This document shows, piece by piece, positions 2 through 35,980 of a stretch of DNA of 38,944 nt. This DNA comes from a virus. The notes under the pieces were generated by a model. The model made no database searches. It worked only from the letters and a program-made list of their open reading frames with translations, and was not told the DNA's origin. Both the position numbers and the translations under genes were made by a program. The DNA lies in the IMG/VR virus record IMGVR_UViG_3300036770_004472, positions 1 to 38,944 of that record; one strand, given 5' to 3'. How positions within the stretch are numbered: the first letter of the stretch is position 1; each line of letters begins with the position of its first letter.

Positions 2-3000
2 ACACAAGGTACACAAGGTCTACAGGGACTTCAAGGTACACAGGGTACACAAGGAACACAAGGATTACAAGGACTACAAGGTTTACAAGGTACACAAGGG
101 CTACAGGGACTTCAAGGTACACAAGGTACACAAGGACTACAAGGCTTACAAGGTCTTCAAGGAACACAAGGCTTACAAGGTCTTCAAGGAACACAAGGAC
201 TTCAAGGAACACAGGGTACACAAGGACTACAGGGATTACAAGGAGTACAAGGCACACAAGGTCTTCAAGGAACACAAGGTCTTCAAGGAACACAAGGATT
301 ACAAGGACTTCAAGGAACACAGGGTACACAAGGACTACAGGGATTACAAGGAGTACAAGGTACACAAGGTCTTCAAGGAACACAAGGTACACAAGGACTT
401 CAAGGTACACAAGGACTACAGGGCTTACAAGGAACACAGGGTACACAGGGTCTACAGGGCTTACAAGGAACACAGGGTCTACAGGGCTTACAAGGAACAC
501 AAGGTACTCAGGGACTTCAGGGATTACAAGGTCTACAAGGAACACAGGGCTTACAAGGAACACAAGGAACACAGGGCTTACAAGGCACTCAGGGACTTCA
601 GGGATTACAAGGAACACAGGGCACTCAGGGACTACAGGGATTACAAGGAACACAAGGTACACAAGGACTACAAGGTTTACAAGGAACACAGGGTACACAG
701 GGTCTACAGGGCTTACAAGGAACACAGGGTCTACAGGGCTTACAAGGAACACAAGGTACTCAGGGACTTCAGGGATTACAAGGTACACAGGGTACACAAG
801 GACTACAGGGCTTACAAGGAACACAAGGAACACAGGGCTTACAAGGAACACAAGGACTTCAGGGCTTACAAGGAACACAGGGCTTACAAGGAACACAAGG
901 GCTACAAGGCTTACAAGGAACACAGGGTCTACAAGGAACACAAGGTCTACAGGGCTTACAAGGTACACAGGGCTTACAAGGAACACAAGGTACACAAGGT
1001 CTTCAAGGTCTACAAGGCTTACAAGGTGTACAAGGAACGCAAGGTTTACAGGGCTTACAAGGAACACAAGGTACTCAAGGACTTCAGGGCTTACAAGGAA
1101 CACAAGGCGTTCAGGGTCTACAGGGATTACAAGGAGTACAAGGTACACAAGGTCTTCAAGGAACACAAGGTACACAAGGACTTCAAGGTACACAAGGACT
1201 TCAAGGTACACAAGGAACACAGGGCACTCAAGGATTACAAGGACTACAAGGAACACAGGGTACTCAAGGACTTCAGGGATTACAAGGTACACAAGGTCTA
1301 CAGGGATTACAAGGTACTCAAGGACTTCAAGGACTACAGGGTACACAAGGTTTACAAGGTACACAAGGACTTCAGGGCTTACAAGGAACACAAGGCGTTC
1401 AGGGTACACAGGGTCTACAGGGTCTACAAGGAACACAAGGCGTTCAAGGTCTACAGGGCTTACAAGGCACTCAGGGATTACAAGGAACACAGGGTACACA
1501 AGGACTTCAGGGAACACAAGGACTTCAGGGCTTACAAGGAACACAAGGTACTCAGGGACTTCAAGGTCTACAAGGAGTTCAAGGTACACAGGGACTTCAG
1601 GGCTTACAAGGTACACAAGGGCTTCAAGGTCTACAAGGTTTACAAGGTACACAAGGGCTACAAGGTTTACAAGGTACTCAAGGAGTTCAAGGTACACAAG
1701 GACTACAAGGTTTACAAGGTACACAAGGACTTCAAGGTACACAAGGTACTCAAGGAGTTCAAGGTACACAAGGACTACAAGGTTTACAAGGTACACAAGG
1801 ACTTCAGGGTCTACAAGGTACTCAAGGCACTCAAGGACTTCAAGGCACACAAGGTACACAGGGTATACAAGGACTTCAAGGACTACAAGGTACACAAGGT
1901 CTACAGGGGTTACAAGGACTACAAGGTATACAAGGGCTACAAGGTTTACAAGGTACTCAAGGAGTTCAAGGTCTACAAGGCACTCAAGGTCTACAGGGCT
2001 TACAAGGAACACAGGGTGTTCAAGGTCTACAGGGACTACAAGGAACACAGGGTACACAAGGAACACAGGGTACACAAGGACTTCAGGGCTTACAAGGAAC
2101 ACAGGGTACTCAAGGTCTACAGGGATTACAAGGTACACAAGGAACACAGGGTACACAAGGACTACAAGGCTTACAAGGTACACAAGGATTACAAGGACTA
2201 CAGGGTTTACAAGGTACACAAGGTACACAAGGACTTCAGGGCCTACAAGGTACACAAGGACTTCAGGGCGTACAAGGAACACAAGGTGTTCAAGGTCTTC
2301 AGGGTCTACAAGGAACACAAGGTGTTCAAGGTCTTCAGGGTCTACAAGGAACACAAGGTACACAAGGGCTACAGGGATTACAAGGAACACAAGGAACACA
2401 AGGAACACAGGGTACACAAGGTACTCAAGGACTTCAGGGACTACAAGGACTACAAGGCACTCAAGGTCTTCAGGGATTACAAGGAGTTCAAGGTCTACAG
2501 GGCTTACAAGGACTACAAGGAGTTCAAGGTCTACAGGGCTTACAAGGAACACAAGGTTTACAGGGCTTACAGGGAACACAGGGTACTCAGGGTCTACAAG
2601 GTTTACAAGGAACACAGGGTACACAGGGATTACAAGGTCTACAGGGATTACAAGGAACACAGGGTACACAGGGGCTACAAGGGCTTCAAGGAACACAAGG
2701 CGTTCAGGGTCTACAGGGTCTACAGGGTCTACAAGGTACTCAGGGTACACAAGGCACACAAGGCACTCAGGGTACACAAGGCACTCAGGGTACACAAGGC
2801 ACACAAGGCACTCAGGGACTTCAGGGCTTACAAGGAACACAAGGACTACAAGGTTTACAAGGAACACAAGGTACACAAGGACTACAAGGTATTCAGGGTA
2901 CACAAGGACTACAAGGTATTCAGGGTACACAAGGACTACAAGGTTTACAAGGCACTCAAGGACTTCAGGGTCTACAGGGTCTACAAGGAACACAGGGTAC

Positions 3001-6000
3001 ACAAGGGCTACAGGGATTACAAGGAACACAGGGTACACAAGGATTACAAGGTACACAGGGTACTCAGGGACTTCAGGGACTACAAGGGTTACAAGGGTTA
3101 CAAGGAACACAAGGTACACAGGGACTTCAGGGCTTACAAGGTGTACAAGGAACGCAAGGTTTACAGGGATTACAAGGCACTCAAGGACTACAGGGACTTC
3201 AAGGTACTCAGGGACTTCAAGGTCTACAAGGAACACAAGGACTTCAGGGATTACAAGGTACTCAGGGCCTACAAGGACTTCAAGGTATACAAGGCTTACA
3301 AGGACTTCAAGGGTTACAAGGTGTACAAGGTACACAGGGAATTCAAGGTCTACAGGGACTACAAGGAACACAGGGTACACAAGGACTTCAGGGCTTACAA
3401 GGTACACAAGGTCTACAGGGATTACAAGGTACTCAAGGACTTCAAGGACTTCAAGGACTACAGGGTACACAAGGTTTACAAGGTACACAAGGACTTCAGG
3501 GTCTACAAGGAACACAGGGTACTCAGGGATTACAAGGTTTACAAGGAGTTCAAGGTACACAAGGGCTACAGGGATTACAAGGACTACAAGGTACACAGGG
3601 TCTACAGGGCTTACAAGGCACACAAGGTGTTCAAGGTCTACAGGGCTTACAAGGCACACAAGGCGTTCAAGGTCTACAGGGCTTACAAGGCACACAAGGC
3701 GTTCAGGGTCTACAGGGCTTACAAGGCACACAAGGCGTTCAAGGTCTACAGGGATTACAAGGCACTCAGGGACTACAAGGCACACAGGGCACTCAAGGAT
3801 TACAAGGACTACAAGGAACACAGGGTACACAAGGACTTCAGGGCTTACAAGGAACACAAGGTACTCAGGGACTTCAAGGTCTACAAGGAGTTCAAGGTAC
3901 ACAGGGACTTCAGGGACTACAAGGAACACAGGGTACACAAGGCATTCAGGGTCTACAAGGTTTACAAGGTACTCAAGGTCTACAGGGGTTACAAGGATTA
4001 CAAGGCCTTCAGGGATTACAAGGAACACAGGGTACTCAAGGTCTACAGGGATTACAAGGAACACAGGGTACTCAAGGTCTACAGGGATTACAAGGTACAC
4101 AAGGGCTTCAAGGTCTACAAGGAACACAGGGTACACAAGGACTACAGGGACTTCAAGGTACACAGGGTACACAAGGACTTCAGGGACTACAAGGCACTCA
4201 AGGACTTCAAGGCTTACAAGGAACACAAGGACTACAAGGTTTACAAGGTACACAAGGTCTACAGGGGTTACAAGGACTACAAGGTACACAAGGGCTACAA
4301 GGTTTACAAGGTACTCAAGGAGTTCAAGGTACACAAGGACTACAAGGTATTCAGGGTACACAAGGACTACAAGGTATTCAGGGTACACAAGGACTACAAG
4401 GAACACAGGGTACACAAGGACTACAGGGCTTACAAGGTACTCAGGGCCTACAAGGGCTTCAAGGAACACAAGGCACACAAGGAGTTCAAGGTCTACAGGG
4501 CTTACAAGGTACACAGGGTCTACAGGGCTTACAAGGAACACAAGGCACTCAAGGGCTTCAAGGAACACAAGGCACACAAGGCACACAAGGTATTCAGGGT
4601 CTACAGGGTCTACAAGGAACACAGGGTACACAAGGACTTCAGGGCTTACAAGGAACACAGGGTACACAAGGACTACAGGGCTTACAAGGTACTCAAGGTC
4701 TACAAGGAGTTCAAGGTACACAGGGCATACAAGGACTTCAGGGATTACAAGGAACACAGGGTCTACAGGGACTACAAGGTACACAAGGAATACAAGGAAC
4801 ACAGGGTCTACAAGGTACACAAGGACTACAAGGACTACAAGGTACACAAGGAACACAGGGACTACAAGGAACACAAGGACTTCAAGGTACTCAGGGCTTG
4901 CAAGGAACACAAGGAACACAAGGTACACAGGGACTACAAGGAATACAAGGTACACAAGGAACACAGGGGTTACAAGGTCTACAAGGAACACAAGGTACAC
5001 AAGGTTTACAGGGTCTTCAAGGCGTACAAGGAACACAAGGACTACAAGGTACTCAGGGTCTACAGGGGTTACAAGGTACACAAGGAACACAGGGACTACA
5101 AGGTACACAAGGACTTCAAGGTACTCAGGGACTACAAGGAACACAAGGTACACAGGGACTACAAGGAATACAAGGTACACAAGGTCTACAGGGCTTACAA
5201 GGTCTACAAGGAACACAGGGTCTACAAGGCACTCAGGGCTTACAAGGTACACAAGGATTACAAGGTGTTCAAGGACTTCAAGGAGTACAAGGTACTCAAG
5301 GGCTTCAAGGTCTACAAGGAACACAGGGTCTACAAGGCACTCAGGGCTTACAAGGTACACAAGGACTACAAGGTGTTCAAGGAACTCAAGGACTTCAAGG
5401 AGTACAAGGTACTCAAGGGCTTCAAGGTGTTCAAGGACTTCAAGGTCTACAAGGTACACAAGGGCTTCAAGGAACACAGGGTACTCAGGGCGTACAAGGT
5501 CTACAGGGCTTACAAGGTACACAAGGTACACAAGGACTTCAGGGTCTACAGGGATTACAAGGTACTCAGGGTCTACAGGGACTTCAAGGAACACAAGGAC
5601 TACAAGGAACACAGGGTCTACAGGGTACTCAGGGTACTCAGGGTACTCAAGGTCTACAGGGACTTCAAGGAACACAAGGACTACAAGGAACACAGGGTCT
5701 ACAAGGAACACAGGGTCTACAAGGATTACAAGGAACACAAGGTCTACAGGGCTTACAAGGGCTTCAAGGAACACAAGGTACACAAGGACTTCAAGGTACT
5801 CAGGGTCTACAGGGCTTACAAGGCACTCAGGGTGCTCAAGGTCTACAGGGCTTACAAGGAACACAGGGTATACAAGGACTACAAGGACTTCAAGGTACAC
5901 AAGGACTTCAAGGTACACAAGGACTTCAAGGTACACAGGGCACTCAAGGACTACAAGGACTACAAGGAACACAAGGTCTTCAGGGCTTACAAGGACTACA

Positions 6001-6430
6001 AGGAACACAAGGAACTCAGGGCTTACAGGGTCTACAAGGAACACAAGGTCTTCAGGGCTTACAAGGACTACAAGGAACACAAGGTCTTCAGGGCTTACAA
6101 GGACTACAAGGAACACAAGGAACTCAGGGCTTACAAGGTACACAAGGTCTTCAGGGCTTGCAAGGAACACAAGGTCTTCAGGGCTTACAAGGAGCACAGG
6201 GACTTCAAGGACTTCAAGGACTACAGGGTCTACAAGGAACACAAGGAGTTCAAGGCACACAAGGAGTTCAAGGCACACAAGGAGTTCAAGGCACACAAGG
6301 AGTTCAAGGTTTACAAGGAACACAAGGACTTCAAGGAAGTCAAGGTATACAGGGCTTACAAGGAAGTCAAGGTATACAGGGGCTACAAGGATTACAAGGC
6401 ACGCAAGGTCTACAAGGGTTACAAGGTATT
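2..6430 (+). repeat. Gly-X-Gln collagen-like repeat tract, 9-bp unit
   Basis: This is more than 6.4 kb of uninterrupted degenerate 9-bp units encoding Gly-X-Gln, where X is mostly Thr or Leu. Synonymous variation (caa/cag; ggt/gga/ggc/ggg; ctt/cta/tta) keeps most copies non-identical in DNA while the protein pattern is strict. The unit contains no stop in several other frames, so long spurious ORFs appear on both strands. Confidence 0.95.
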
Positions 6431-9400
6431 TCATTAGAGCAATGGCAATTAATTACATCAAATACAACTGTGGCTGATGGAGGTAGATATATTGCTAATA
6501 CAAGTAGTGGGGCATTTACAGTAACATTACCAGCAAGTCCTGTACTTGGTGATTATATTATCATCACAGATGGAGATTTCCCAACAAATTGGTCTGTTAA
6601 TAATCTGACAATTAATGGCAATGGAGAGACAATAGCAGATCAGGTTGGAGATTTACTACTAAATGTAGGAGCGACCACAGTTGAATTAATTTATAGTGGA
6701 ACAACTTGGTTAGTGACAGCTACTTTGGGACCAGCTGGTGTTCAAGGAACACAAGGAATACAGGGTCTTCAAGGAGTTCAAGGTTTACAAGGCTTACAGG
6801 GATTATTTGGAATTCAAGGCTTACAGGGTACACAAGGCTTACAGGGTACACAAGGAGTACAAGGTACACAGGGTATACAGGGTACTCAAGGTATTCAAGG
6901 TACACAAGGAACACAGGGTGTTCAGGGTGCACAAGGACTACAAGGTGTACAAGGAACACAGGGTGTTCAGGGAACACAGGGCTTGCAAGGAACACAGGGT
7001 GTTCAGGGAACACAGGGCTTGCAAGGAACTCAAGGTGTTCAGGGAGCACAAGGTCTTCAGGGATTACAAGGCACGCAAAGTACTCAAGGTCTTCAGGGTC
7101 TACAAGGAACACAAGGTACTCAAGGACTTCAGGGATTACAAGGCACGCAAGGTACTCAAGGACTTCAGGGATTACAAGGCACGCAAGGTACTCAAGGTCT
7201 TCAGGGATTACAAGGCACGCAAGGTACTCAAGGTCTTCAGGGTCTACAAGGCACGCAAGGTACTCAAGGTCTTCAGGGTCTACAAGGAACACAAGGTACT
7301 CAAGGACTTCAGGGTCTACAAGGAACACAAGGACTTCAAGGTACACAAGGTACTCAAGGAATACAAGGAACACAAGGAACACAAGGTATACAGGGACTTC
7401 AAGGTATACAGGGTACACAAGGTACACAGGGTTTACAAGGTCTACAAGGAATTTCACTAGAGCAATGGCAATTAATTACGTCAAATACCACTGTGGCTGA
7501 TGGCGGTAGATATATTGCTAATACAAGTAGTGGGGCATTCACAGTAACATTACCAGCAAGTCCTGTACTTGGTGACTACATAATCATCACAGACGGAGAT
7601 TTCCCAACAAATTGGTCTGTTAATAATCTGACAATTAATGGTAATGGAGAGACAATAGCAGATCAGGCTGGAGACTTACTACTGAACGTGGGAGCGACAA
7701 CAGTTGAATTAATCTATAGTGGAACGACCTGGTTAGTGACAGCTACGTTAGGACCAGCTGGTGTTCAAGGAACACAAGGAATACAGGGTCTTCAAGGAGT
7801 TCAAGGTTTACAAGGCTTACAGGGTATTCAAGGAGCTCAAGGTGTACAGGGTATACAAGGTATTCAAGGTGTTCAGGGCTTACAAGGAACACAAGGAACT
7901 CAGGGCTTACAAGGAACACAAGGTGTACAAGGAACACAAGGAACACAAGGTACTCAAGGATTACAAGGCTTACAAGGATTACAAGGTACACAGGGCTTAC
8001 AAGGTCTACAAGGCACTCAGGGCACTCAAGGACTACAAGGTCTACAAGGTACTCAAGGACTACAAGGTCTACAAGGTACTCAAGGACTTCAAGGTACTCA
8101 AGGTCTACAAGGTACTCAAGGACTTCAAGGCATTCAAGGAGTTCAAGGAACACAGGGACTTCAAGGCACGCAAGGTACACAAGGTCTTCAAGGTTTACAA
8201 GGTACACAGGGTACACAGGGGCTTCAAGGAGCACAAGGAACACAAGGTCTTCAGGGCTTACAAGGAACACAGGGTACTCAGGGCTTACAAGGTACACAAG
8301 GATTACAAGGATTACAAGGAACACAGGGTACTCAGGGCTTACAAGGTACACAAGGAGTACAAGGAGTACAAGGATTACAAGGGACTCAGGGTACTCAAGG
8401 CTTACAAGGACTACAAGGTACACAAGGACTACAAGGTACACAAGGACTACAGGGCACACAAGGTACACAAGGAACTCAAGGTACACAGGGTCTTCAAGGA
8501 ACTCAGGGTTTACAAGGAACACAAGGTTTACAAGGAACACAAGGTCTTCAGGGATTACAAGGAACACAAGGTCTACAAGGCATTCAAGGAGTTCAAGGAG
8601 TTCAAGGAGTTCAAGGAACACAAGGACTTCAAGGAACACAAGGACTTCAAGGAACACAAGGACTTCAAGGAACACAAGGTCTACAAGGAATTCAAGGAGT
8701 TCAAGGAATACAAGGTACACAAGGCATACAGGGTACACAAGGCATACAAGGACTACAGGGTACACAAGGCACACAGGGTACACAAGGACTTCAAGGCATA
8801 CAGGGTACTCAGGGTACTCAGGGTATACAAGGACTTCAAGGTATACAAGGAACACAAGGACTTCAAGGTCTACAAGGAACACAAGGACTACAAGGAACAC
8901 AAGGAACACAGGGACTACAAGGAACACAAGGAACACAAGGTCTACAAGGAACACAAGGTCTACAAGGAACACAAGGACTTCAAGGTACACAAGGACTTCA
9001 AGGTACACAAGGAACACAAGGTCTACAAGGAACACAAGGACTTCAAGGTACACAAGGAACACAAGGTCTACAGGGACTACAAGGAACACAAGGAATACAA
9101 GGGTTACAAGGAACACAGGGACTACAAGGAACACAGGGACTACAAGGAACACAAGGAACACAAGGTCTACAAGGAACACAAGGCACACAAGGCGTTCAGG
9201 GACTTCAAGGATTACAAGGCACTCAAGGAACACAAGGACTTCAAGGTACACAAGGATTACAAGGATTACAAGGCTTACAGGGTATTCAAGGCGTACAAGG
9301 AACACAAGGACTACAAGGTACTCAGGGTCCACAGGGATTACAAGGAACACAAGGAATACAAGGAACACAGGGTGTTCAGGGACTACAAGGAACACAGGGT

Positions 9401-11605
9401 GTTCAAGGATTACAAGGAACACAAGGATTACAAGGAGTTCAAGGTCTTCAAGGTACACAAGGTCTACTGGGCTTACAAGGAACACAAGGGCTTCAAGGAT
9501 TACAAGGTACACAAGGATTACAAGGTGTTTCGCTAGAACAATGGCAACTAATAACATCAAACACCACTGTAATAAATGGTGGTAGATATATTGCTAATAC
9601 AAGTAGTGGGGCATTTACTGTAACACTTCCAGCAAGTCCATCACTTGGTGATTATATAATCATCACAGATGGGGATTTCCCAACTAATTGGTCTGTTAAC
9701 AACCTTACCGTCGACGGAAATGGGGAAACAATTGCCGATCAGTCTGGCAATTTGCTATTAAATGTAGGAGCTGTCACAGTTGAGTTACTTTACAGTGGAA
9801 CAACTTGGTTAGTTACCGCTACATTAGGACCGGCCGGGGTTCAAGGAACACAAGGAATACAGGGAATAACAGGATCAGGCACACAAGGATTACAAGGAAC
9901 ACAAGGACTACAAGGACTACAAGGATTACAAGGAACACAAGGAATACAGGGAATAACAGGATCAGGCACACAAGGACTACAAGGACTACAAGGAACACAA
10001 GGTACACAAGGTACACAAGGTCTACTGGGCTTACAAGGAACACAAGGTCTACAAGGTACACAAGGCACACAAGGCACACAAGGTACACAAGGTCTACTGG
10101 GCTTACAAGGAACACAAGGTCTACAAGGTACACAAGGCACACAAGGCACACAAGGCACACAAGGTCTACTGGGCTTACAAGGAACACAAGGAACACAAGG
10201 ATTACAAGGAGTTCAAGGTCTTCAAGGTACACAAGGTCTACTGGGCTTACAAGGACTACAAGGACTACAAGGTATTCAAGGTATTCAAGGTATTCAAGGT
10301 ATTCAAGGTATTCAAGGTATTCAAGGTATTCAAGGAATACAGGGATTACAGGGATTACAGGGATTACAGGGATTACAGGGAATTACAGGATCACAGGGCG
10401 TATTTGGTAATCAAGGTACACAAGGATTACAGGGAACTATAGGAAGTCAAGGCATACAAGGACTAAGTGGTAGCCAAGGCATACAAGGTATTCAAGGAGT
10501 TCAAGGATTACAAGGTACATCTTTAGCATCATGGACATACATTACAACTAATACTTTAGTTGAAAATGGTGGTCGTTACATAGCAGATACAAGCTCAGGT
10601 TCATTTACAGTAACATTGCCAGCAGCTCCGGTGGTAGGGGATTACATAATAATAACCGATGGTGATTATCCAACCAATTGGTCAATAAACAACTTAACAA
10701 TAAATGGAAACGGATCATTAATAGCAGACCAATCAGGAAATTTACTATTAAATGTGGGTAATGTAACAGTTGAGTTGATTTATAATGGAAGTACATGGTT
10801 AGTAACTGCCACTTTAGGTCCAGCTGGAATTCAAGGCCTACAAGGTTTCCAAGGTGTTTCTGGTACAGGCATACAAGGTACACAAGGAGTTCAAGGTACA
10901 CAAGGAACACAAGGAGTTCAAGGATTATTAGGATTCCAAGGAACACAAGGACTACAAGGACTACAAGGAACACAAGGAACACAAGGAACACAAGGAACAC
11001 AAGGAGTTCAAGGATTATTAGGATTCCAAGGAACACAAGGAACACAGGGTACACAAGGTCTACAGGGACTTCAGGGACTTCAGGGATTATTAGGATTTCA
11101 AGGTATACAAGGTGTTCAAAGCCTACAGGGACTTCAAGGACCACAAGGAAGCACAGGTGACGAAAGTAAGATTAACGCTACAAACGATATAACAACTGAT
11201 GCTAGCTTCTACCCAGTAATGGTAGCAACATCAGGCTCAAGTCAAACTGCTACAGTTACAACAAGTAAACTATATTTTAATCCAAGTACAGGTACATTGA
11301 ATGCTACAGATGTAAATACCTTATCAGATGTAAACTTAAAAACAGATATTAATGAAATTTATGATCCGTTAAGTTTATTGAAACAAATTCAAGGGTATAA
11401 GTTTAAGTTTATGGATTCTGGAAAACAAAGTGTTGGAGTATTAGCTCAGGATGTTGAAAAAGTGTTACCTGAGTTAGTTTCTACAAATAGTAAAGGTGAT
11501 AAATCCGTATCATATAATGGTATTATAGCATTATTGATTGAAGCTGTAAAAGAACAACAAATTATAATTAATAATTTACAAAATCTTTTTAAAAATAAGG
11601 AGTAA
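2..11605 (+). CDS. Giant collagen-like tail/virion fibre with C-terminal S74 chaperone (5' partial)
   Basis: One frame is open from base 2 to a TAA at 11603-11605, giving 3,867 visible codons; the start lies upstream of the window. TTG codons such as 4898 are internal Leu codons, not starts. Most of the protein is a three-residue repeat Gly-X-Gln, with X being Thr, Leu, Val or Ile and very few Pro or Lys. Four ~103-residue non-repeat modules interrupt it, all in its last 1,730 codons. The C-terminus (from about 11318) is a peptidase S74 intramolecular chaperone: a [10 protein letters not shown] motif with the expected cleavage Ser at 11324-11326, a [13 protein letters not shown] motif and a terminal helix. 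S74 domains trimerise fibres and then cut themselves off, so this is almost certainly a trimeric fibre. Gly-X-Y repeats in phage proteins are known to form collagen-like triple helices. The repeat register is never broken, which argues against internal frameshifts. Exact repeat number may be affected by assembly. Confidence 0.93.
6431..6739 (+). repeat. Fibre beta module 1 (~103 aa) inside the collagen-like protein
   Basis: This non-collagen module starts at [10 protein letters not shown] and ends at ATLGPAG. It has alternating hydrophobic strands and Gly/Asn turns ([38 protein letters not shown]), typical of small beta domains in T4-like phage fibres. It is nearly identical to modules 2 and 3. 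It may act as a trimerisation or registration knob or as a glycan-binding site; which one cannot be told from sequence. Confidence 0.85.
7454..7762 (+). repeat. Fibre beta module 2 (~103 aa)
   Basis: The protein is nearly identical to module 1 (visible change GDLLLN preceded by QA instead of QV), with scattered synonymous DNA differences. Both modules are followed by the same triplets ([16 protein letters not shown]), so the duplication unit included collagen flank as well as the module. Confidence 0.85.
9530..9838 (+). repeat. Fibre beta module 3 (~103 aa)
   Basis: This is a third copy, more diverged than modules 1 and 2 ([31 protein letters not shown]). It is separated from module 2 by about 1.8 kb of Gly-X-Gln repeat and followed by GITGSG-interrupted triplets. 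Confidence 0.85.
10271..10378 (+). repeat. Perfect 9-bp tandem arrays within the fibre gene
   Basis: Seven identical ggtattcaa units (Gly-Ile-Gln) run from 10271 to 10333. One variant unit follows, then four identical ggattacag units (Gly-Leu-Gln) at 10343-10378. Copies elsewhere in the fibre differ synonymously, so these perfect runs suggest recent slippage expansion. Confidence 0.9.
10520..10828 (+). repeat. Fibre beta module 4 (~103 aa), most diverged copy
   Basis: This copy begins [20 protein letters not shown] and ends ATLGPAG. It keeps the same strand pattern but has many substitutions ([25 protein letters not shown]). It is the copy closest to the S74 domain. Confidence 0.82.
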
Positions 11606-11607
11606 AT

Positions 11608-11997
11608 ATGGCACATTTTGCTGAATTAGATCAAAATAATATAGTAATTAATATTATGGTTGTTAATAATTCTGATATGTTGGATATTAATGGCATTGAA
11701 TCAGAAGAAATAGGTATACAATACTTAACAGGTTTATTTGGTAATAAAAGATGGAAACAAACAAGTTACAATGATAATTTTAGGTACAGGTATGCTGGAT
11801 TAGACATGGTATATGACGAAGAACATGACGCATTTACCTTTCCAAAACAATTTCCAAGTTTTATATGGAGTGTAACAGAAGGAATCTATGTACCACCTAT
11901 ACCCAAACCAAATGATCCTCAAAACTTGTATGATTGGAATGAGGAGTCTCAATCTTGGATGTTTGTTGGACCTGACCCAGACTATACTCCGAATTAA
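11608..11997 (+). CDS. MAHFAEL-family phage protein (fibre-associated, function unknown)
   Basis: This 129-aa protein starts MAHFAELD, with WKQTSYNDNFRYRYAG in the middle and a Pro/Trp/Asp-rich tail (FPSFIW, PPIPKPND, YDWNEES). Small proteins of this plan are frequent next to tail-fibre genes in cyanophages and other aquatic T4-like phages, where they are usually left as hypothetical or virion-associated. It lies 2 bp after the giant fibre stop, with GGAG just upstream of the ATG, so it is probably co-expressed with the fibre. A paralogue lies at 19271-19768, again directly after an adhesin gene. That placement suggests a role in fibre attachment or assembly, by inference only. Confidence 0.75.
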   Translation: MAHFAELDQNNIVINIMVVNNSDMLDINGIESEEIGIQYLTGLFGNKRWKQTSYNDNFRYRYAGLDMVYDEEHDAFTFPKQFPSFIWSVTEGIYVPPIPKPNDPQNLYDWNEESQSWMFVGPDPDYTPN

Positions 11998-13316: not shown

Positions 13317-14312
13317 ATGGAAAAGTTTAATGACGGTATAGTAAAATTTATAATTCAAAACAATGGCTCTATTCATCCACTTGTTATAAATTCTGAATTA
13401 AATGGTGGAACTGGGTTAATGAATCCTAGTGTTTTTGTAGATGAAGCAGATAATATATATGTAAATTTAAGGTCTATTAATTACACACTTTATCATAGTG
13501 AAAGTAAAAAATTTGCCCATGCTTGGGGACCTTTACAGTACTTACATCCTGAAAACGATCAAACTTTAAAAACTAAAAATTACTTTTTATGTCTAAATGA
13601 AAATTTAGACATTACTAAAATATCATTGGTAAATACAAACAAAAATGACATACCACCAAAATGGCATTTTATAGGTCTTGAAGACGCTAGATTATTTAAA
13701 TGGCATAATAAATTTTATATTTGTGGTGTGAGACGAGATGATAATACTACTGGATCTGGAAGAATGGAACTTCAAGAACTTGAAATTACAGGTGATGAAG
13801 TAAAAGAAGTTAATAGACATAAAATTCCTGCTCCTGGCAGAAACGCAAGTTATTGCGAAAAAAATTGGATGCCAATTGTCGATAAACCATTTCACTTTGT
13901 TAAATGGTCCAACCCAACTGAAATAGTACATACAAACGTTACTGAAGGGACTTGTAAAACTGTTATTTTAGATGAAAGCAAAAAATTACCATTGCCAAAT
14001 GATTTACGTGGAAGCAGTCAGGTAATACCTTGGAAAAATGGACATTTAGCAATTACACATGAAGTAAATTTATACAATGATATACAGGGAAGAAAAGATG
14101 GAAAATATCGTCATCGTTTTGTATATTGGGATAGTGACTGGAATTTAGTTAAAACAAGCGATTTTTTTCATTTCATGACTGGAGAAATTGAATTTTGTGC
14201 TGGATTAGCTAAACATAAAGACAATTTACTTATAAGTTTTGGTTTTCAGGATAACATAGCATTTTTACTTAAGATGCCAATAGTATTATTAGATCAATTT
14301 ATTACAATTTAA
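13317..14312 (+). CDS. GH130/GH43-like five-bladed beta-propeller protein (glycoside hydrolase or phosphorylase-like)
   Basis: The 331-aa protein has blade-like motifs of the glycosidase propeller clans: LMNPSVFVDEADNIYVNLR near the N-terminus, IGLEDARLFKWHNKFYICG (the GxEDxR/F signature of GH130-like proteins), a WMPIVDKPFHFVKWSNP blade, and FCAGLAKHKDNLLISFG near the end. GH130 enzymes cleave beta-mannosides, mostly by phosphorolysis. Related propellers also occur in glycan-synthesis clusters without proven activity. It sits directly upstream of a double GT17 glycosyltransferase (8-bp gap), so a role in making or trimming a glycan is likely. The sugar is unknown. Confidence 0.6.
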   Translation: MEKFNDGIVKFIIQNNGSIHPLVINSELNGGTGLMNPSVFVDEADNIYVNLRSINYTLYHSESKKFAHAWGPLQYLHPENDQTLKTKNYFLCLNENLDITKISLVNTNKNDIPPKWHFIGLEDARLFKWHNKFYICGVRRDDNTTGSGRMELQELEITGDEVKEVNRHKIPAPGRNASYCEKNWMPIVDKPFHFVKWSNPTEIVHTNVTEGTCKTVILDESKKLPLPNDLRGSSQVIPWKNGHLAITHEVNLYNDIQGRKDGKYRHRFVYWDSDWNLVKTSDFFHFMTGEIEFCAGLAKHKDNLLISFGFQDNIAFLLKMPIVLLDQFITI

Positions 14313-14320
14313 GGTTAAAA

Positions 14321-16696
14321 ATGATAGTAGATTATTTTATGTTTCATAACGAAGTAGAATTACTTCAGCTTAGATATCACATGTTAAAGTATGTCGTAGA
14401 CAAATTTGTTATATCAGAAGCTAGCACAACTTTTACGGGAAAACCTAAAGAATTTCGTGCCAAAGAATTAGTAGATCAACTAGATTTAGATCCAAATAAA
14501 TTTATTTTTTTAAGTGTAAGAACTGAAGAAGAATTTTTACAAACTGAAAAAATAGATATTTGGAACGCAGAAAATGTGGGGCGTTCTGATAAAGTAGAAG
14601 TTTATACCAGACAAAGAACACAAAGAGATGCTATAGGCAAAATTTTAGATAATTTTCCTGATGATACTGTGTTTATTTGTGGTGACATAGATGAAATTCC
14701 TAAACCATCCGCAGTTAAATGGATAGCCAGTCAAACACGTAATCAACCAAATAATTTTTTTAAAATTCCACTTGTTTTATTAGAAGGAGGTGCTAATCAG
14801 CGAGTTTATAATGAAAATGATCAACCTGTTCCTTGGAGTTTGTCGTTAATTTTTACTACAAAAAATATTTTAAAACATACCCCAAGTAAGCTTAGAGCTG
14901 ATTTTGAATGCAACATTATCCCATTGGCCCTTACAGAAAATGGTAAAGTAATACAGGACTTAGGTTGGCATTTTACTTGGATGGGTGATAAGGAAAGGAA
15001 ACAAATAAAAGCACAATCATGTGCTCATTCAGTAGTACCTAATTTAATTAATAACGTTACTGAAGAAACAAAAAAAGAGTTACAAAATTTAGTAGATGAA
15101 AAATTTGGGGAAATAGTACGTTACCACCATAAACCTTATGACATAAAAGAATTACCTGTTGAAATTTTTCAACTACCCAATGTCAAAAAATTCTTATTGC
15201 CTAATCTAGATCGTGTTAAAACAGTTGATTGTTTCATGTATTTTAATGAAAGTGAATTGCTAGAATTAAGATACCATTTACTTAAGGATTATGTTGATCT
15301 TTTTGTTGTAATTGAATCAAATGTTACTTTTTCAGGTAATCCAAAAGAGTACACAGCAGAAGGTATAGTTGACACTTTAAAATTAGATAAGAAAAAATTT
15401 AGATTTTTACATGTTGATCAACGGTTTATTTCTGAAAATGATATAAAGAACGAGGATAAAATTTATTCAAAGGTAGCAAGAGATGAAAATGGTATATTAA
15501 AATGGGTGAGAGAACGACATCAACGAGATTATGTTGTAAGGATTTTACATGAATTTGATGATGAATGTGCCTTTATTGTAAGTGATGCGGATGAAATTAT
15601 AGCTCCACACGCTGTTAATTACATCACTAGACTTGTAAGGGAAAATCCCTCTCATATTATAAAGGTTCCATTAATTTTACTTGAATCAAGAGCAGACAGA
15701 AGAATACATCACAGCAATAATAATCCTATGATGTGGGATAAATCTATGTTTATTGCTACTGCAAAACAATTAATGATTTCAAGTCCAAATTCAATTAGAG
15801 GAGAAACACAAACTCAATTTAAAATAAGCTATATAGCCGAAAACAATAAACGTGTAGAAGATTTGGGTTGGCACTTTACTTGGATGGGTGATAATAATAG
15901 AATTAAGGATAAAGCACTAAATTTTGGTCATTCAGGAAATTTAGCCGCATCTAATACAATTTCTCCACATACAGCGAAAAAACTAACTGATCTATTAGGT
16001 AAAACAGTTAACAATAAAAACTATACTATAAAAGAATTCAATAAAAAAGATTTACCAAAAGAAATTTTTGATTTACCAACAGTAAGAAAATTTTTATTAC
16101 CTAGCCCCACTGATTTAACTGAAGAAACAATGATTAACATGAAAAAAGAAAAAATCAGTGCCTTTGTATTGAATCCTAAAAATCCAGTTACAAACTTTGA
16201 ACTAGGATATTCCTATGAATGTATAGGTCAAACTGCTGCTGCTGTAAGTTTTTACTTGCGTACTGCCGAACTTACAGACGATGATAATTTTCAGTATGAA
16301 TGTTTGTTACGATTAGCGAACTGTTTTAAACTACAAAAAAACAGAAATTTTACAGTAACACATATAGTGAACCGTGCTATTACTGTAAATCCTCATAGAC
16401 CTGAAGCATATTTTGTGCAATCAAATAATTATTTAGAAGCAAAAGATTATCAAAATGCTTATTTATATTCTTCAATTGGCTTAGCCTTGTTGTCCAAAGA
16501 TTTAGTGCCATTTAAAACTGAATTTCATTATCCAGGTTTGTATGCTTTAGAATATATAAACGCTATTTCAGGATATTATGTTGGTTTTTATAAACAATCT
16601 AAAGAGAAGTTGCTTGAGTTGCAGGATAATAAATATATATCATTGTATTACAAAGAAAAAATTAAAGAAGATTTATCTACAGTAATTAAAATTTAA
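14321..16696 (+). CDS. Tandem GT17 glycosyltransferase with C-terminal TPR region
   Basis: The 791-aa protein holds two glycosyltransferase family 17 domains (the family of beta-1,4-N-acetylglucosaminyltransferase III), offset by about 300 residues. Domain 1 starts VDYFMFHNEVELLQLRYH and has GDIDEIP (D122, D124) and LGWHFTWMG. Domain 2 starts VDCFMYFNESELLELRYH and has SDADEI (D422, D424) and LGWHFTWMG. The DxD-like acidic pairs should bind nucleotide-sugar and metal, and both domains keep them, so both may be active. Residues from about 615 on look like TPR helices (FELGYSYECIG, YLRTAEL, NPHRPEAY), which may dock a protein substrate. It follows the propeller gene by 8 bp and precedes the second fibre operon. 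Activity on the fibre is inference. Confidence 0.85.
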   Translation: MIVDYFMFHNEVELLQLRYHMLKYVVDKFVISEASTTFTGKPKEFRAKELVDQLDLDPNKFIFLSVRTEEEFLQTEKIDIWNAENVGRSDKVEVYTRQRTQRDAIGKILDNFPDDTVFICGDIDEIPKPSAVKWIASQTRNQPNNFFKIPLVLLEGGANQRVYNENDQPVPWSLSLIFTTKNILKHTPSKLRADFECNIIPLALTENGKVIQDLGWHFTWMGDKERKQIKAQSCAHSVVPNLINNVTEETKKELQNLVDEKFGEIVRYHHKPYDIKELPVEIFQLPNVKKFLLPNLDRVKTVDCFMYFNESELLELRYHLLKDYVDLFVVIESNVTFSGNPKEYTAEGIVDTLKLDKKKFRFLHVDQRFISENDIKNEDKIYSKVARDENGILKWVRERHQRDYVVRILHEFDDECAFIVSDADEIIAPHAVNYITRLVRENPSHIIKVPLILLESRADRRIHHSNNNPMMWDKSMFIATAKQLMISSPNSIRGETQTQFKISYIAENNKRVEDLGWHFTWMGDNNRIKDKALNFGHSGNLAASNTISPHTAKKLTDLLGKTVNNKNYTIKEFNKKDLPKEIFDLPTVRKFLLPSPTDLTEETMINMKKEKISAFVLNPKNPVTNFELGYSYECIGQTAAAVSFYLRTAELTDDDNFQYECLLRLANCFKLQKNRNFTVTHIVNRAITVNPHRPEAYFVQSNNYLEAKDYQNAYLYSSIGLALLSKDLVPFKTEFHYPGLYALEYINAISGYYVGFYKQSKEKLLELQDNKYISLYYKEKIKEDLSTVIKI

Positions 16697-16768: not shown

Positions 16769-18277
16769 ATGGCAATCAAAGTAACTGGTAACATTGTCAT
16801 AAGCGATACGCAGGCTATTTCTAATGTTACCACAATAAGTGCCAATGGTAATGCAAATTTAGGCAATTTAGGAACAGCTAGTGTATTAGCTACAGCCAAT
16901 GTTACAGCCCCACAACTTATAAGCAATATAAGTACTGGAACGGCACCGCTTACAGTAAGTTCAACAACAGTAGTTGCTAATTTAAATGCTGATTTATTAG
17001 ATGGATATAATACAGCTACCGCGGGAACTGCTAATACAGTAGCAGTTAGAGATACAAATGGAAATCTTACAGCCAATTTTTTCAGTGGAAATGGAAGTCA
17101 ATTAACAGGTGTTACAGCAGGGTTCCCTATTGCCAATGGAACAAGTAATATTAATGCTCCAGCAGTAAATGGAAATGTTAATATTAGTGTAGGCGGGACT
17201 GCTAATGTATTGATAACAACATCAACTGGTGTTAATGTAGCTGGAACATTAAATGCTACAGGCAATGCCAATACGGGAAATTTAGGCACAGGTAGAATAT
17301 TAGCCTCAGGAAATATTACAACAACGCAACTAGTAAGTAACATTACTACAGGTACAGCCCCATTAGTTGTTTCTTCAACTACAGCAGTTGCTAATTTAAA
17401 TGCTGATTTATTAGATGGATATAATACAGCTACAGCGGCAACTGCTAATACAGTAGCAGTTAGAGATACAAATGGAAATCTTACAGCTAATTTTTTCAGT
17501 GGAAATGGAAGTCAACTAACTGGAATAAGTGCTGGTTTTCCAATTGCCAATGGAACAAGCAACCTAAGTGCGCCGGCTGTAAATGGAAATATTAACATTA
17601 GTGTAGGTGGTGTGGCGAACGTACTTGTTACAACAACTACTGGTGTTAATGTAGCTGGAACACTTAATGCTACAGGAAACGCAAATACAGGAAATTTAGG
17701 CACAACTACAGCAATTATAACAACAGGTAATATTACTACGATTAACAGTGGTCTTTTACAAAACGGCAACAGTAATATAGCAATAACAGCTAACGGAAAT
17801 ATAGGGTTTTCTGTAACAGGTAGCGCAAATGAAGTAGTATTTACTAGCACAGGTGCCAATATAAATGGTTATTTAACTGTAACAGGCAATATTACAGGGG
17901 GCATTTTAAGTAATAGTACAAATGTTTTTAGCACGGCAAGTAGCAACTATTCTATTGGTTATCGTCAGATGCCACAAAATAGCCAAGGTGGTGCTACATA
18001 CACATTAGTATTGGATGATGAGGGCAAAAGTGTTGTATTCACAGGAACCACAACGTGTACTTTAACTGTGCCATTAAATAGTTCGCAGGCATTTCCAGTT
18101 GGATCAGTGATAACATTTATCAATAATAATAGCGGAAATTTAACAATAAATAGTTCGGCTACCTTACAACTAGCAAACGGTAATGCAGCCAATAGAACAG
18201 TTTTGACAAAAGGTATGGCAACCTGTATTAAAATTGCCACGGACACATGGTATTTAATAGGAGCAGGAGTATCATAA
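16769..18277 (+). CDS. Tail fibre-like structural protein with internal duplication
   Basis: The 502-aa protein is rich in Asn, Thr, Gly and Ala, with almost no Lys after the N-terminus. A ~60-residue block (STGTAPL, NLNADLLDGYNTATA, VAVRDTNGNLTANFFSG) occurs twice, about 140 residues apart. NLNADLLDG is a common phage fibre motif, and the repeating hydrophobic/polar pattern suggests a beta-helical shaft. The last ~90 residues (YTLVLDDEGKSVVF to TWYLIGAG) resemble the small beta-barrel tips found at the ends of tail-fibre proteins. It is followed after 1 bp by the glycine-rich adhesin, so the pair probably forms a shaft and tip. No enzymatic motif is seen. Confidence 0.8.
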   Translation: MAIKVTGNIVISDTQAISNVTTISANGNANLGNLGTASVLATANVTAPQLISNISTGTAPLTVSSTTVVANLNADLLDGYNTATAGTANTVAVRDTNGNLTANFFSGNGSQLTGVTAGFPIANGTSNINAPAVNGNVNISVGGTANVLITTSTGVNVAGTLNATGNANTGNLGTGRILASGNITTTQLVSNITTGTAPLVVSSTTAVANLNADLLDGYNTATAATANTVAVRDTNGNLTANFFSGNGSQLTGISAGFPIANGTSNLSAPAVNGNINISVGGVANVLVTTTTGVNVAGTLNATGNANTGNLGTTTAIITTGNITTINSGLLQNGNSNIAITANGNIGFSVTGSANEVVFTSTGANINGYLTVTGNITGGILSNSTNVFSTASSNYSIGYRQMPQNSQGGATYTLVLDDEGKSVVFTGTTTCTLTVPLNSSQAFPVGSVITFINNNSGNLTINSSATLQLANGNAANRTVLTKGMATCIKIATDTWYLIGAGVS

Positions 18278-18278
18278 T

Positions 18279-19259
18279 ATGACAGGCGCAGCAGCAGGGA
18301 TGATGATGATGGATGGTAAAGGAGGAGTACCACCAGTACCACCAGTACCACCAACCTATACAATTGAGTATTTGGTTATAGCAGGAGGCGGGGGCGGTGC
18401 TAATGGCAGAAATACTTACGGTGGGGCCGGTGGGGGTGCGGGTGGTTGTGTATGTGGGAGTTTTACAGCTAATGTTGCTCAAGTTTACCCAATAAGTGTG
18501 GGAGGTGGCGGAGCAGGTGGGTCTGGTTGGCCTCCCAGTCCCGGCGCGGGGTCCTGCCGAGGATCTGTTGGAACAAATAGTTCCATACCAGGCATATCAG
18601 CAGCAGGATGCGGTGGAGGAGGTGGAGGAAATACCTGCCCTGCGAGCTTATTAGGAGGTTGCGCCGGTGGTTCTGGTGGTGGCAGTGGCAATATTACCTC
18701 TGGTGGAGCCGGTACTCCTGGACAAGGCACAAATGGTGGATATGGGCGTACCTCGACCCCACAGAGACTTGGAGGTGGCGGAGGTGGAGCAGGCGAAGCA
18801 GGAGGATCCTACGATGCTCCCGCACCAGCAAAACCCCCAGGGGTTCGAGTTTATGGTGGTTGTGGGAGCGCATGGTTAGATGGTGTTCTTAGAGCTGGAG
18901 GTGGAGGTGGAGGATCAACGACTTCTTCAACAGCTACAGTAGGTTTCATAGCAGGTTATGGAGGAGCTGGTGGAGGTGGTGCTGGTAAACGTCAGCCAGC
19001 AGCTCCTAGAACTCCAGCTACTCTAGAAGAAGGTGCAGGAGACCCTGGGACGGCAAATACAGGTGGTGGTGGTGGTGGTGCTGCAGCACCTGCCACATAC
19101 CCACCTTTTTTGACTATCACTGTTCAGGGAGGATCAGGAGGAAGTGGCGTCGTAATTTTACGTTATTCAGGACCTCCTCGAGGAACAGGTGGTACAATTA
19201 CAGTGTCAGGTGGATATACTTACCATCAATTTAACGGATCAGCCTCATATACAGGATAA
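18279..19259 (+). CDS. Glycine-rich adhesin (tail-fibre tip, Gp38-like polyglycine domain)
   Basis: The 326-aa protein has a short Met/Gly start, a PVPPVPP linker, then IEYLVIAGGGGG and about 230 residues of Gly-rich segments. It ends GSGVVILRYSG and GGYTYHQFNGSASYTG. This YLVIAGGGG...GVVILRYS frame is the signature of phage glycine-rich adhesins, where polyglycine-II helices pack into a rigid tip, as in Salmonella phage S16 gp38, and variable loops between them bind receptors. Several Cys and Pro-rich loops between the Gly runs are candidate receptor-binding loops. The higher local GC follows from Gly codons and need not mean transfer. It is coupled to the fibre gene by a 1-bp gap. Confidence 0.85.
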   Translation: MTGAAAGMMMMDGKGGVPPVPPVPPTYTIEYLVIAGGGGGANGRNTYGGAGGGAGGCVCGSFTANVAQVYPISVGGGGAGGSGWPPSPGAGSCRGSVGTNSSIPGISAAGCGGGGGGNTCPASLLGGCAGGSGGGSGNITSGGAGTPGQGTNGGYGRTSTPQRLGGGGGGAGEAGGSYDAPAPAKPPGVRVYGGCGSAWLDGVLRAGGGGGGSTTSSTATVGFIAGYGGAGGGGAGKRQPAAPRTPATLEEGAGDPGTANTGGGGGGAAAPATYPPFLTITVQGGSGGSGVVILRYSGPPRGTGGTITVSGGYTYHQFNGSASYTG

Positions 19260-19270
19260 ATGGAGAATTA

Positions 19271-19768
19271 ATGGCACATTTTGCTGAACTTGATGAAAAT
19301 GATATTGTTATAGGGGTTTTAGTTGTAGAAAACAAGAATATTGTTGACGAAACAGGAAAAGAACAAGAACATATAGGTATAGCTTATTTAAGAAATTTGT
19401 TTGGTCAAGAAAAACGTTATGTTCAAACAAGTTATAATCATAATTTTAGAAAAAAATATGCTGGAATAGGTGACACATATCGTTCCGATCTTGATATGTT
19501 CATAGAGATAAGACCATATCCAAGTTGGACGCTTAGTAATATTGGGACTTGGGAACCTCCAATATCTAAACCAGACGAAATTAAACCCTATAGTTGGGAT
19601 GAAGATAATCAACGTTGGTTCAATGATCCTGGACCACAACCTTTTGCTAGCTGGATTATTAATGAAGAAACAGGTGTTTGGGAAGCACCTATCCCCATAC
19701 CTGACGATTCTGAAACGGTTTTCTATGATTGGGATGAAGAAAATCAAGCTTGGATACAAGTTGAGTAA
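19271..19768 (+). CDS. MAHFAEL-family phage protein with duplicated C-terminal Trp/Pro repeat
   Basis: This 165-aa paralogue of the protein at 11608 shares the MAHFAELD start, the QTSYNHNFRKKYAGIG core and the tail SWT...WEPPISKPDE...YSWDEDNQRW. It then carries a second copy of the tail (FASWIINEETGVWEAPIPIP, YDWDEENQAW), which explains the extra length. The first tail is also kept, so the tail unit can be gained in tandem. As with the first copy, it directly follows an adhesin/fibre gene (11-bp gap). Function unknown; a fibre-associated structural role is the best guess. Confidence 0.75.
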   Translation: MAHFAELDENDIVIGVLVVENKNIVDETGKEQEHIGIAYLRNLFGQEKRYVQTSYNHNFRKKYAGIGDTYRSDLDMFIEIRPYPSWTLSNIGTWEPPISKPDEIKPYSWDEDNQRWFNDPGPQPFASWIINEETGVWEAPIPIPDDSETVFYDWDEENQAWIQVE

Positions 19769-28150: not shown

Positions 28151-29293
28151 ATGAGTTATCTTTTTACAAGCGAAAGCGTGAGCGAAGGACACCCTGATAA
28201 GGTTGCTGATGCTATCAGTGATGGTATATTAGATGCTGTTATGTCACATGAAAATACCAGCTTACGCTGTGCTTGTGAAACATTGGTTACAACAAATAAA
28301 GTTGTTGTAGCAGGAGAATATAAAGGTGAGTTAGATGACCTTGATGTAAAATATCTTGTTCAAAAAACAATCAAAAACATTGGTTATGAACAACAAGGCT
28401 TTGATTGGAGAACAATAGAAGTATATAATTTATTACATCCTCAAAGTGCTGATATTGCCCTTGGTACAGACAACTTCGGAGCAGGTGATCAAGGATTAAT
28501 GTTTGGATATGCCTGTAACGAAACCAGTGAATATATGCCAAGTGCCATATATTATAGTCATCGTATTGTAGAGGGACTTACACAAGTAAGGAAAAACAGT
28601 GGTATAATGTTAGGTCCTGATAGTAAGTCACAAGTCACAATGGAATACAACGATGATTCTACTGTAAAACGTATTGCTAAAGTAGTATGTAGTACACAAC
28701 ATCACACCGATTATAATATCGAAAATGTACGTATTGATGTAGAACACGTTATACGTAATATACTTCCAAAAGATTTAGTTGATGACAATACTGAATTTTA
28801 TATCAATCCAACTGGGAGATTTGTAATTGGTGGACCTGATGGCGATGCAGGACTAACTGGACGTAAGATTATTGTTGATACATATGGTGGGTATGCTCCA
28901 CATGGTGGTGGTGCGTTTAGTGGTAAAGATCCAACTAAAGTAGATCGTAGTGCTGCTTATATGATGCGTTATATTGCTAAAAATATTGTAGCAAGTGGAT
29001 ACGCACAATGGGCTACCTGTCAAGTAAGTTATGCCATTGGATTGAAAGAACCAATGAGCTTTTATATTGAAACCCCTGACTTGGACACAAGCAGATATCT
29101 AACAAATTGGGTAAATACTAACGTAGATTTGAGCCCAGCTGGTATTATTGAAAGATTTAACTTGTTTAGACCAATATATCAGTCAACTACAAACTACGGA
29201 CATTTTGGAAAAGCTATGTTACCATGGGAACAAGTAGACTTATTTAATGACGAATCCTGCAGACCAACCTTCCCAAACCAATACAAAGAGTAA
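28151..29293 (+). CDS. metK: S-adenosylmethionine synthetase
   Basis: The 380-aa protein is full length (E. coli enzyme 384 aa). It makes AdoMet from Met and ATP. The N-terminal FTSESVSEGHPDK has H14, D16 and K17 in exactly the E. coli positions. GAGDQGLMFGYA is the ATP/Met loop, and GGGAFSGKDPTKVDRSAAY is the phosphate-binding motif. No key residue appears lost. AAAGGAAAACA precedes the ATG. Codon use is AT-rich like its neighbours, so it is not a very recent arrival. Three AdoMet-dependent methyltransferase-like genes lie in the same window. Confidence 0.97.
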   Translation: MSYLFTSESVSEGHPDKVADAISDGILDAVMSHENTSLRCACETLVTTNKVVVAGEYKGELDDLDVKYLVQKTIKNIGYEQQGFDWRTIEVYNLLHPQSADIALGTDNFGAGDQGLMFGYACNETSEYMPSAIYYSHRIVEGLTQVRKNSGIMLGPDSKSQVTMEYNDDSTVKRIAKVVCSTQHHTDYNIENVRIDVEHVIRNILPKDLVDDNTEFYINPTGRFVIGGPDGDAGLTGRKIIVDTYGGYAPHGGGAFSGKDPTKVDRSAAYMMRYIAKNIVASGYAQWATCQVSYAIGLKEPMSFYIETPDLDTSRYLTNWVNTNVDLSPAGIIERFNLFRPIYQSTTNYGHFGKAMLPWEQVDLFNDESCRPTFPNQYKE

Positions 29294-31477: not shown

Positions 31478-31854
31478 AGTACTCGACCATTATGAGAACC
31501 CAAGAAATGTAGGATCGTTCGCCAAGGAGGACCCGCAAGTCGGCACCGGTATGGTTGGTGCACCGGCTTGCGGCTGACGGCGATGTTATGAAACTACAAA
31601 TTAAGGTCGACAAATCAACAGGAATTATCACAGATGCCAAATTTAAGACATATGGGTGTGGGTCAGCAATTGCTTCGTCAAGTCTTGTCACAGAGTGGGT
31701 CAAGGGTAAAACATTGGATGAGGCATCAACAATCAGAAACACTCAAATCGCTGAAGAACTCGCACTCCCCCCAGTCAAGATCCATTGCTCTATCCTCGCA
31801 GAAGATGCGATAAAGGCAGCGATTAAGGATTACAAAAATAAAATTTTGTGCTAG
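31461..31854 (+). pseudogene. iscU: Iron-sulfur cluster scaffold iscU, interrupted by 7-nt insertion with in-frame TGA
   Basis: The first 38 codons (MAYSDKVLDHYENPRNVGSF to MVGAPACG) match E. coli IscU residue for residue through the ligand Cys37. Frame then meets TGA at 31575-31577. The rest continues in the +1 frame as DVMKLQIKV, YGCGSAIASSSL (second ligand Cys), LPPVKIHCSILAEDA (HscA-binding LPPVK and third ligand Cys) to TAG-adjacent KNKILC. The expected junction is CGGC-GATGTT; here TGACGGC is inserted, leaving CGGC on both sides. All ligands are otherwise intact, so either the loss is recent, the break is a sequencing error, or it is read through by +1 shifting (which would add two residues, DG). 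Bases 31511-31580 are about 66% GC, far above the surroundings, suggesting transfer from a host. IscU assembles Fe-S clusters with IscS. Confidence 0.85.
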
Positions 31855-33295: not shown

Positions 33296-33739
33296 ATGAT
33301 AAAATATATTTCTTATAATCAAATTTATGAAATTTGGCAAACTAAATTATGGCCTAATAGATTAAGTAAGATTGAACCTAATAGTAGTATGTGTTTCTTA
33401 GCAGGTGTTGATATAAACAATATGTATTTACCATCTACCTTTATTGGATTATTTGTTGATGAAAAATTAGTAGGAGTAAATAGTGGTCATTTATGCTCAG
33501 ACAAATCCTATAGAAGTAGAGGATTATATGTTGACATTGATTATAGAGGATTTGGATATGGGGTCGAATTACTTACAGCTACAGTTAATATAGCAATTAA
33601 GAATAAGGCAAAATTCATTTGGAGTTTACCTAGACAAACTAGTTGGAAAACTTACAAAAGCGCAGGATTTAAATTAGCAAGTAATTGGACAAGAACGGAA
33701 ACTAGTGAAAGTAATGCTTATTGCTACAAAGTGTTATGA
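33296..33739 (+). CDS. GNAT family N-acetyltransferase
   Basis: The 147-aa protein shows the GNAT order. A substrate-side N-terminal half includes FIGLFVDEKLVGVNSGH. Motif A follows as RSRGLYVDIDYRGFGYG (acetyl-CoA pyrophosphate loop), then ELLTATVNIAIKNKAKFIW, and motif B as TYKSAGFKL. It transfers an acetyl group from acetyl-CoA; the acceptor is unknown. Its stop overlaps the ATG of the QueC-like gene in an ATGA, so the two are coupled. Confidence 0.85.
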   Translation: MIKYISYNQIYEIWQTKLWPNRLSKIEPNSSMCFLAGVDINNMYLPSTFIGLFVDEKLVGVNSGHLCSDKSYRSRGLYVDIDYRGFGYGVELLTATVNIAIKNKAKFIWSLPRQTSWKTYKSAGFKLASNWTRTETSESNAYCYKVL

Positions 33740-34798: not shown

Positions 34799-34948
34799 AT
34801 GTACAAATATCAATTATGGGTTAGAATTAATGACTTTCAAACAGCTAATACTTATGTTTGGGCAAGTAATGATTACGAAGCAAAATTGTTAGGTGAGGCT
34901 CAATATGGTGTTGGCAATGTACTAAACTATACCAAAGTAGATGATTAA
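34799..34948 (+). CDS. Small phage protein (49 aa)
   Basis: The ATG at 34799 is preceded by AAGGAGAAATTT, a strong ribosome site. The product MYKYQLWVRINDFQTANTYV continues to WASNDYEAKLLGEAQYG and ends NYTKVDD. Its composition is that of a compact alpha/beta protein, and similar mini-proteins occur in aquatic T4-like phages without a known function. It overlaps the def start by 8 bp, so translation of def is probably coupled to it. Confidence 0.7.
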   Translation: MYKYQLWVRINDFQTANTYVWASNDYEAKLLGEAQYGVGNVLNYTKVDD

Positions 34949-35979: not shown

Positions 35980-35980
35980 A

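Follow-up and report, generated by a model that had tools for sequence, protein, structure and literature searches.

What kind of virion protein is encoded by a gene composed mostly of Gly-X-Gln triplets is the question raised by the viral contig IMGVR_UViG_3300036770_004472. The window analysed here comprises this IMG/VR record in full (38,944 bases), and the gene occupies positions 2..11605 (+ strand, as are all the features of this gene given below), with 3,867 codons visible, the 5' end beyond the contig and the stop codon at 11603-11605. Probably, the gene encodes the shaft and the distal end of a collagen-type phage tail fibre, trimerised by an S74 domain and clamped by XD1 domains. A preliminary description of the contig had already proposed a collagen-like fibre, and this was backed by matches to Pfam Collagen and Peptidase_S74, by the relationship to the S16 tail fibre, by the XD1 domains and by the tail and baseplate neighbours of related genes. 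However, the non-collagen parts of the protein, namely the XD1 domains and the S74 C-terminus, had been overlooked in that description.

The visible frame contains 1,104 Gly-X-Y triplets, that is 3,312 residues, with Gly at every third residue over long runs as in the collagen family, and the last Gly-X-Y segment matched Pfam Collagen PF01391 (E 2e-17). Gln occupied the Y position in 1,077 of the 1,104 triplets (97.6%), and the X position was mainly Leu (510), Thr (435), Val (75) and Ile (61). Pro was found only five times, four of them as a Gly-Pro-Ala triplet directly after an XD1 domain, and charged residues and His (K, R, D, E, H) were absent from the repeat. The preliminary description had given the same composition, with hardly any Pro, and had placed the 5' end of the gene outside the window; indeed, the frame is open at that end and the contig ends within the repeat. 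It had also reported a strict repeat of about 3,300 residues in one unbroken frame. The frame and the residue number held, whereas the repeat itself proved to be interrupted by four domains of about 98 residues, one Gly-to-Ser break and a few register shifts. The longest unbroken run comprises 714 triplets (8..6433, aa 3-2144), which would measure about 613 nm if triple-helical. It is followed by segments of 39 + 41 triplets (6728..7456, with the Gly-to-Ser break at 7079-7087), 198 triplets (7751..9532), 6 + 10 + 62 triplets with two register shifts (9827..10522) and 6 + 28 triplets (10817..11119), the first two of these being of Gly-X-Gln type like the long run and the last two of Gly-X-Y type.

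The frame 2..11605 (+) is the coding frame, because the inserted domains and the S74 C-terminus are all read in it, third positions are free and the domain copies differ mostly at codon position 3. In the repeat codons, GG and CA(R) are almost fixed and third positions vary freely, giving 88 different 9-mers, and XD1 copies 1 and 2 differ at 1, 1 and 19 sites in codon positions 1, 2 and 3, respectively. Long open reading frames (ORFs) in the antisense and the other frames were rejected, as they arise from the scarcity of stops in the repeat unit, whichever frame is read. The order of Thr and Leu at the X position was not random, with autocorrelation peaks at lags 3-4 and with 113 of the 200 Leu runs having a length of exactly two. 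However, shuffled run lengths reproduced most of this order, and a structural helical period is not claimed.

The C-terminal end of the protein begins with a mostly non-repetitive distal tip region (11120..11323), for which the monomer model was of low confidence and which ends at the predicted self-cleavage Ser. This is followed by an S74 intramolecular chaperone (11324..11602; Pfam PF13884, Peptidase_S74), whose first codon, 11324-11326, is that of the Ser. Its C-terminal position, the family match and the conserved Ser/Lys motif are those of S74 chaperones: the Ser, an Asp, and a Lys five residues past the Ser were invariant across 12 aligned sequences. The region matched the distal subunit gp37 of the S16 long tail fibre (PDB 6f45, E 2e-10) as well as many PHROG tail-fibre and baseplate families. 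In addition, its predicted fold, modelled here with moderate confidence, matched those of MyRF ICA and the K1F chaperone (3gw6). In phage fibres, domains of the S74 type bring about trimerisation, after which self-cleavage removes them (PMC10579305).

The four inserted domains lie at 6434..6727 (copy 1), 7457..7750 (copy 2), 9533..9826 (copy 3) and 10523..10816 (copy 4, the most diverged). Copy 1 was identified by profile match and predicted structure and copy 3 by profile match, and copy 2 has 273 of its 294 bases in common with copy 1. A profile built from these copies and their relatives matched CBA120 TSP4 (E 1e-7), T4 gp10 (E 4e-6) and T4 gp34 (E 0.003), and tail and baseplate families were among the PHROG matches. 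Furthermore, the AlphaFold2 monomer model (predicted local distance difference test score, pLDDT, 87.5) matched TSP4, T4 gp9, T4 gp10 and the KP1 baseplate. As judged from these profile and model comparisons, the four domains are homologous in sequence and predicted fold to the XD1 domain of T4 gp9/gp10 and CBA120 TSP4. The collagen-XD1-collagen arrangement was also present in about 10 other viral contigs.

According to the structure that we propose, the S74 domain would join three chains at their C-terminus and set their register, and would cut itself off at the conserved Ser, as is known for its relatives. The Gly-X-Gln repeat would zip from the C-terminus towards the N-terminus, forming a long, thin and flexible triple helix of the collagen type. 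Because chains of so uniform a repeat could slip out of register, the proposal includes the four XD1 trimers as in-line clamps or spacers that would reset it. In TSP4, the XD1 domain (residues 80-178) is a beta-sandwich that packs around the threefold axis; its N-terminus and C-terminus emerge at opposite faces, and its role seems to be that of a spacer (PMC8825819). With termini so placed, XD1 could be inserted into the line of a triple helix. The missing N-terminus would anchor the fibre to the virion, most likely to the tail or the baseplate. Contact with the host would be made by the tip or by a protein attached to the tip.

Related arrays were sought by pattern scans of viral contigs: the core motif was present in at least 118 stretches, and 20 Gly-X-Gln triplets without interruption likewise in at least 118; a stricter and complete scan gave 56 stretches. 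Among 84,980 species with cellular genomes, 25 stretches with at least 20 uninterrupted triplets were found, and in these X was mostly Pro, Asp, Ala or Val. Since such arrays are rare in cellular genomes and plentiful in viral contigs, long Gly-X-Gln arrays look like a phage speciality that annotation labels merely as 'tail fiber'. Shorter fibres of this kind were found in the isolated Synechococcus phages S-CRM01, S-SCSM2R and DSL-LC02 (Kyanoviridae). That of DSL-LC02 carries an S74 domain, and this phage has the same mannosyltransferase-like neighbour as the window. Comparison at the DNA level found no near phage isolate, and no sister contig carrying the missing 5' end was found, the best domain identity being 66%.

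The position of the fibre on the virion was considered in the light of these relatives. In the main alternative, the same trimeric collagen rod would be attached to the head, forming a decoration or whisker there, a reading that we regard as unlikely although it has several observations in its favour. In the nearest relative (L127:2-10794), whose N-terminus is intact and which has 482 triplets and two XD1 domains, the collagen gene is the third gene downstream of that of the major head protein (gp23, phrog_138). Between the two genes lie those of a homing endonuclease and a desaturase-like protein. Moreover, the collagen gene of VR7, of the GPQ type, is located between gp24 and Hoc-like genes, ESCO10 being arranged alike, and the XD1 model also matched, weakly, the capsid spike 9ny6 (E 0.003). 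A collagen-like fold is also known from the capsid protein gp12 of SPP1 (PMC6316719). However, the S74 and XD1 modules are most similar to tail and baseplate proteins, the named upstream neighbours of Gly-X-Gln genes belong mostly to tail-fibre and baseplate families, and no head gene was found in the window. As regards the T4-like coliphages themselves, the GPQ-type genes of ESCO10 (L313:4851-7043) and VR7 (L314:4650-8008), which adjoin Hoc-like head decoration genes, possibly encode capsid collagen fibres.

The length and the chemistry of the shaft were also evaluated. The collagen parts sum to 947 nm if triple-helical (3,312 residues x 0.286 nm), a lower bound, and about 62 further triplets past the contig end would take the fibre beyond 1 micrometre. 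The rise used agrees with the length of about 30 nm obtained by electron microscopy for a phage collagen domain of 111 residues (PMC3368898). The estimate of nearly 1 micrometre in the preliminary description was therefore sound as arithmetic, but the shaft would not be one continuous rod, as XD1 domains and breaks divide it. Its statement that the chemistry is unlike that of animal collagen fell short of the finding, since the repeat also lacks charge. In tabulated viral collagens the X position is Pro in 22% and Asp/Glu in 35% of the cases, and the Y position Lys/Arg in 38% and Gln in 13% (PMC3368898). The frequent Pro in X and the many charges of these proteins were absent from the fibre repeat.

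This composition bears on a further alternative, in which Gly-X-Gln would form another type of trimeric fibre or be mostly disordered, with a length far below 1 micrometre. Pro and charge pairs are the reported stabilisers of non-animal collagens (PMC3368898, PMC8968730), and the repeat is almost free of the former and devoid of the latter. A phage collagen side-fibre protein has been demonstrated to be trimeric and triple-helical, and that measured collagen relies on Pro and charge (PMC3368898). Nevertheless, Gly is essentially invariant over 1,104 triplets with third positions free, which indicates that Gly has been strongly selected for at one residue in three. In addition, a Gly-Pro-Ala triplet starts the repeat after each XD1 domain, an S74 domain ends the protein, and Gln often occupies the Y position in collagens of bacteria and viruses (PMC3368898). 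The absence of a triple helix seems rather improbable.

Finally, an inflated repeat number, or the joining of arrays from several related phages, is very improbable: although this is a metagenomic contig ending inside the repeat, and 150 of 219 related ORFs run into the ends of their stretches, the longest exact DNA repeat in the array was of 108 bases with none of 120 or more, codon usage was even along the 714-triplet run (p 0.18-0.91), both as observed on the contig, two other contigs attain 713-722 triplets, and short-read assemblers usually collapse repeats and seldom expand them. The lack of longer exact repeats would also be expected from an assembler breaking at longer repeats; because this leaves the same picture and the array runs into the contig end, the triplet count should be read as a minimum. 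The fibre was the longest of the 253 Gly-X-Gln ORFs retrieved, followed by two of 722 and 713 triplets, and the second-longest uninterrupted run had 464 triplets; these ORFs are samples, many of them cut by stretch ends, and 'longest' means the longest retrieved. Three phage contigs (L115, L366 and L223) carry 650-720 Gly-X-Y triplets, mostly with Gln, and are also open at the 5' end of their stretches; in L115 the X position includes Asp as well.

Several facts count against the tail fibre that we propose. Its attachment end lies outside the contig, the collagen gene of the nearest relative is close to a head gene as described above, and the neighbours in the window are largely metabolic and sugar genes. 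Besides, the gene is followed directly by a phrog_7759 gene and not by that of a Gly-rich tip protein, and we know of no measurement of a stable triple helix formed by Gly-X-Gln free of Pro and charge.

Collagen-like tail fibres of phages have been described before, and aquatic phage contigs often encode Gly-X-Gln fibres; what is notable in the window fibre is its extreme length, its chemistry and its punctuation by XD1. With S16 gp37 (6f45) it has in common the fibre class and a homologous C-terminal chaperone with the Ser...Lys motif, no match being found to the S16 distal subunit beyond the chaperone end. However, it adds a collagen shaft and XD1 domains, is far longer and has no tip protein gene directly after it. 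EPclA-D, collagen-like side-tail proteins of enterohaemorrhagic Escherichia coli (EHEC) prophages, combine a collagen stalk of three chains with a trimerisation domain at the C-terminus (PMC3368898), features shared with the window fibre as far as its predicted trimer is concerned, but their capping domains are different. The EPclA collagen comprises 111 residues in comparison with at least 3,312 here, and the EPclPs show 48% Pro in X and many charges, whereas the window fibre has no charge and nearly no Pro (PMC3368898). The aquatic-phage fibres (DSL-LC02, S-CRM01, S-SCSM2R and many IMG/VR contigs) share Gly-X-Gln with X often Thr, Leu, Val or Ile, some carrying S74 (DSL-LC02) and some in-line XD1. 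Nonetheless, the arrays of the isolates are far shorter, and the longest in another contig (L115) has 722 triplets, 464 of them uninterrupted. The XD1 domains of CBA120 TSP4, T4 gp10 and T4 gp9 have the same fold and detectable sequence homology, but XD1 is present as a single copy in these baseplate or tailspike proteins of T4 and CBA120 and as four copies within the collagen shaft here. SPP1 gp12 is likewise a phage virion protein with a collagen-like fold, which is predicted for the window fibre, but it has 64 residues, is located on the capsid and lacks S74 and XD1.

A bolder interpretation, which we hold only tentatively, is that one protein builds the longest known viral fibre, exceeding 1 micrometre, with its helix stabilised by a ladder of Gln in Y and not by Pro/hydroxyproline or charge pairs and with XD1 domains as register clamps, and that this constitutes a separate, phage-specialised collagen chemistry, along with a rule for designing homotrimeric helices of great length. 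If real at this length, the fibre would give the phage a reach on the scale of the host cell, a shaft of about 1 micrometre being about the size of many aquatic bacteria, which bears on host finding in dilute water. It would also mean that long collagen helices are possible without proline, hydroxyproline or salt bridges, and would make the roles of Y-position Gln and of in-line trimer clamps directly testable.

The gene next to that of the fibre (11608..11997, + strand) starts 2 bases past the fibre stop and encodes a phrog_7759 protein, a candidate assembly or accessory protein. As this family usually lies downstream of phage fibres, with a Gly-rich protein before it in 22 of 23 loci, phrog_7759 is probably a fibre-accessory or assembly family without a name so far. 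The window holds two paralogues, at 11608-11997 and 19271-19768. The latter belongs to a second fibre cassette (16769-19768), in which a fibre-like structural protein is followed by a Gly-rich PF21722 protein (18279-19259) and by the phrog_7759 protein. Gly-rich proteins follow S74 fibres in 14 of 63 cases, compared with 85 Gly-rich proteins among 7,655 ORFs overall, and some Gly-X-Gln fibres also precede one, the order in L157 being fibre, Gly-rich protein and phrog_7759. In S16, the fibre gene is followed by that of a Gly-rich tip protein, and the order observed here recalls that arrangement, as an order only. No solved relative of the Gly-rich neighbour protein was detected, and hence its homology to the S16 tip protein is not claimed.

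Three 2-oxoglutarate (2OG)-Fe(II) oxygenase genes (at 12052, 12647 and 31861) and two glycosyltransferase-like genes near the fibre (13317 and 14321) were also found. A modification partner, as for hydroxylated or glycosylated collagens, was considered and rejected, because genes for 2OG oxygenases show no enrichment around Gly-X-Gln genes (0.82 per 100 kb, compared with 3.5 around S74 genes that lack the repeat) and the fibre has almost no Pro to hydroxylate; glycosylation of Thr is a separate possibility. Relatives of the gene at 13317 occur in fibre-gene regions of S-SCSM2R and DSL-LC02, which places the phage near Kyanoviridae. Genes for a short DegT-type aminotransferase, a hexapeptide acyltransferase and glycosyltransferase-like proteins (35966-36610, 37370-37996, 36607-37377 and 13317-16696) form a possible surface-sugar set. 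The window also carries phage-borne genes for an S-adenosylmethionine synthetase (28151-29293), a protein with a NifU-like N-terminal domain (31555-31854), a QueC-like protein (33721-34362) and a peptide deformylase (34941-35375).

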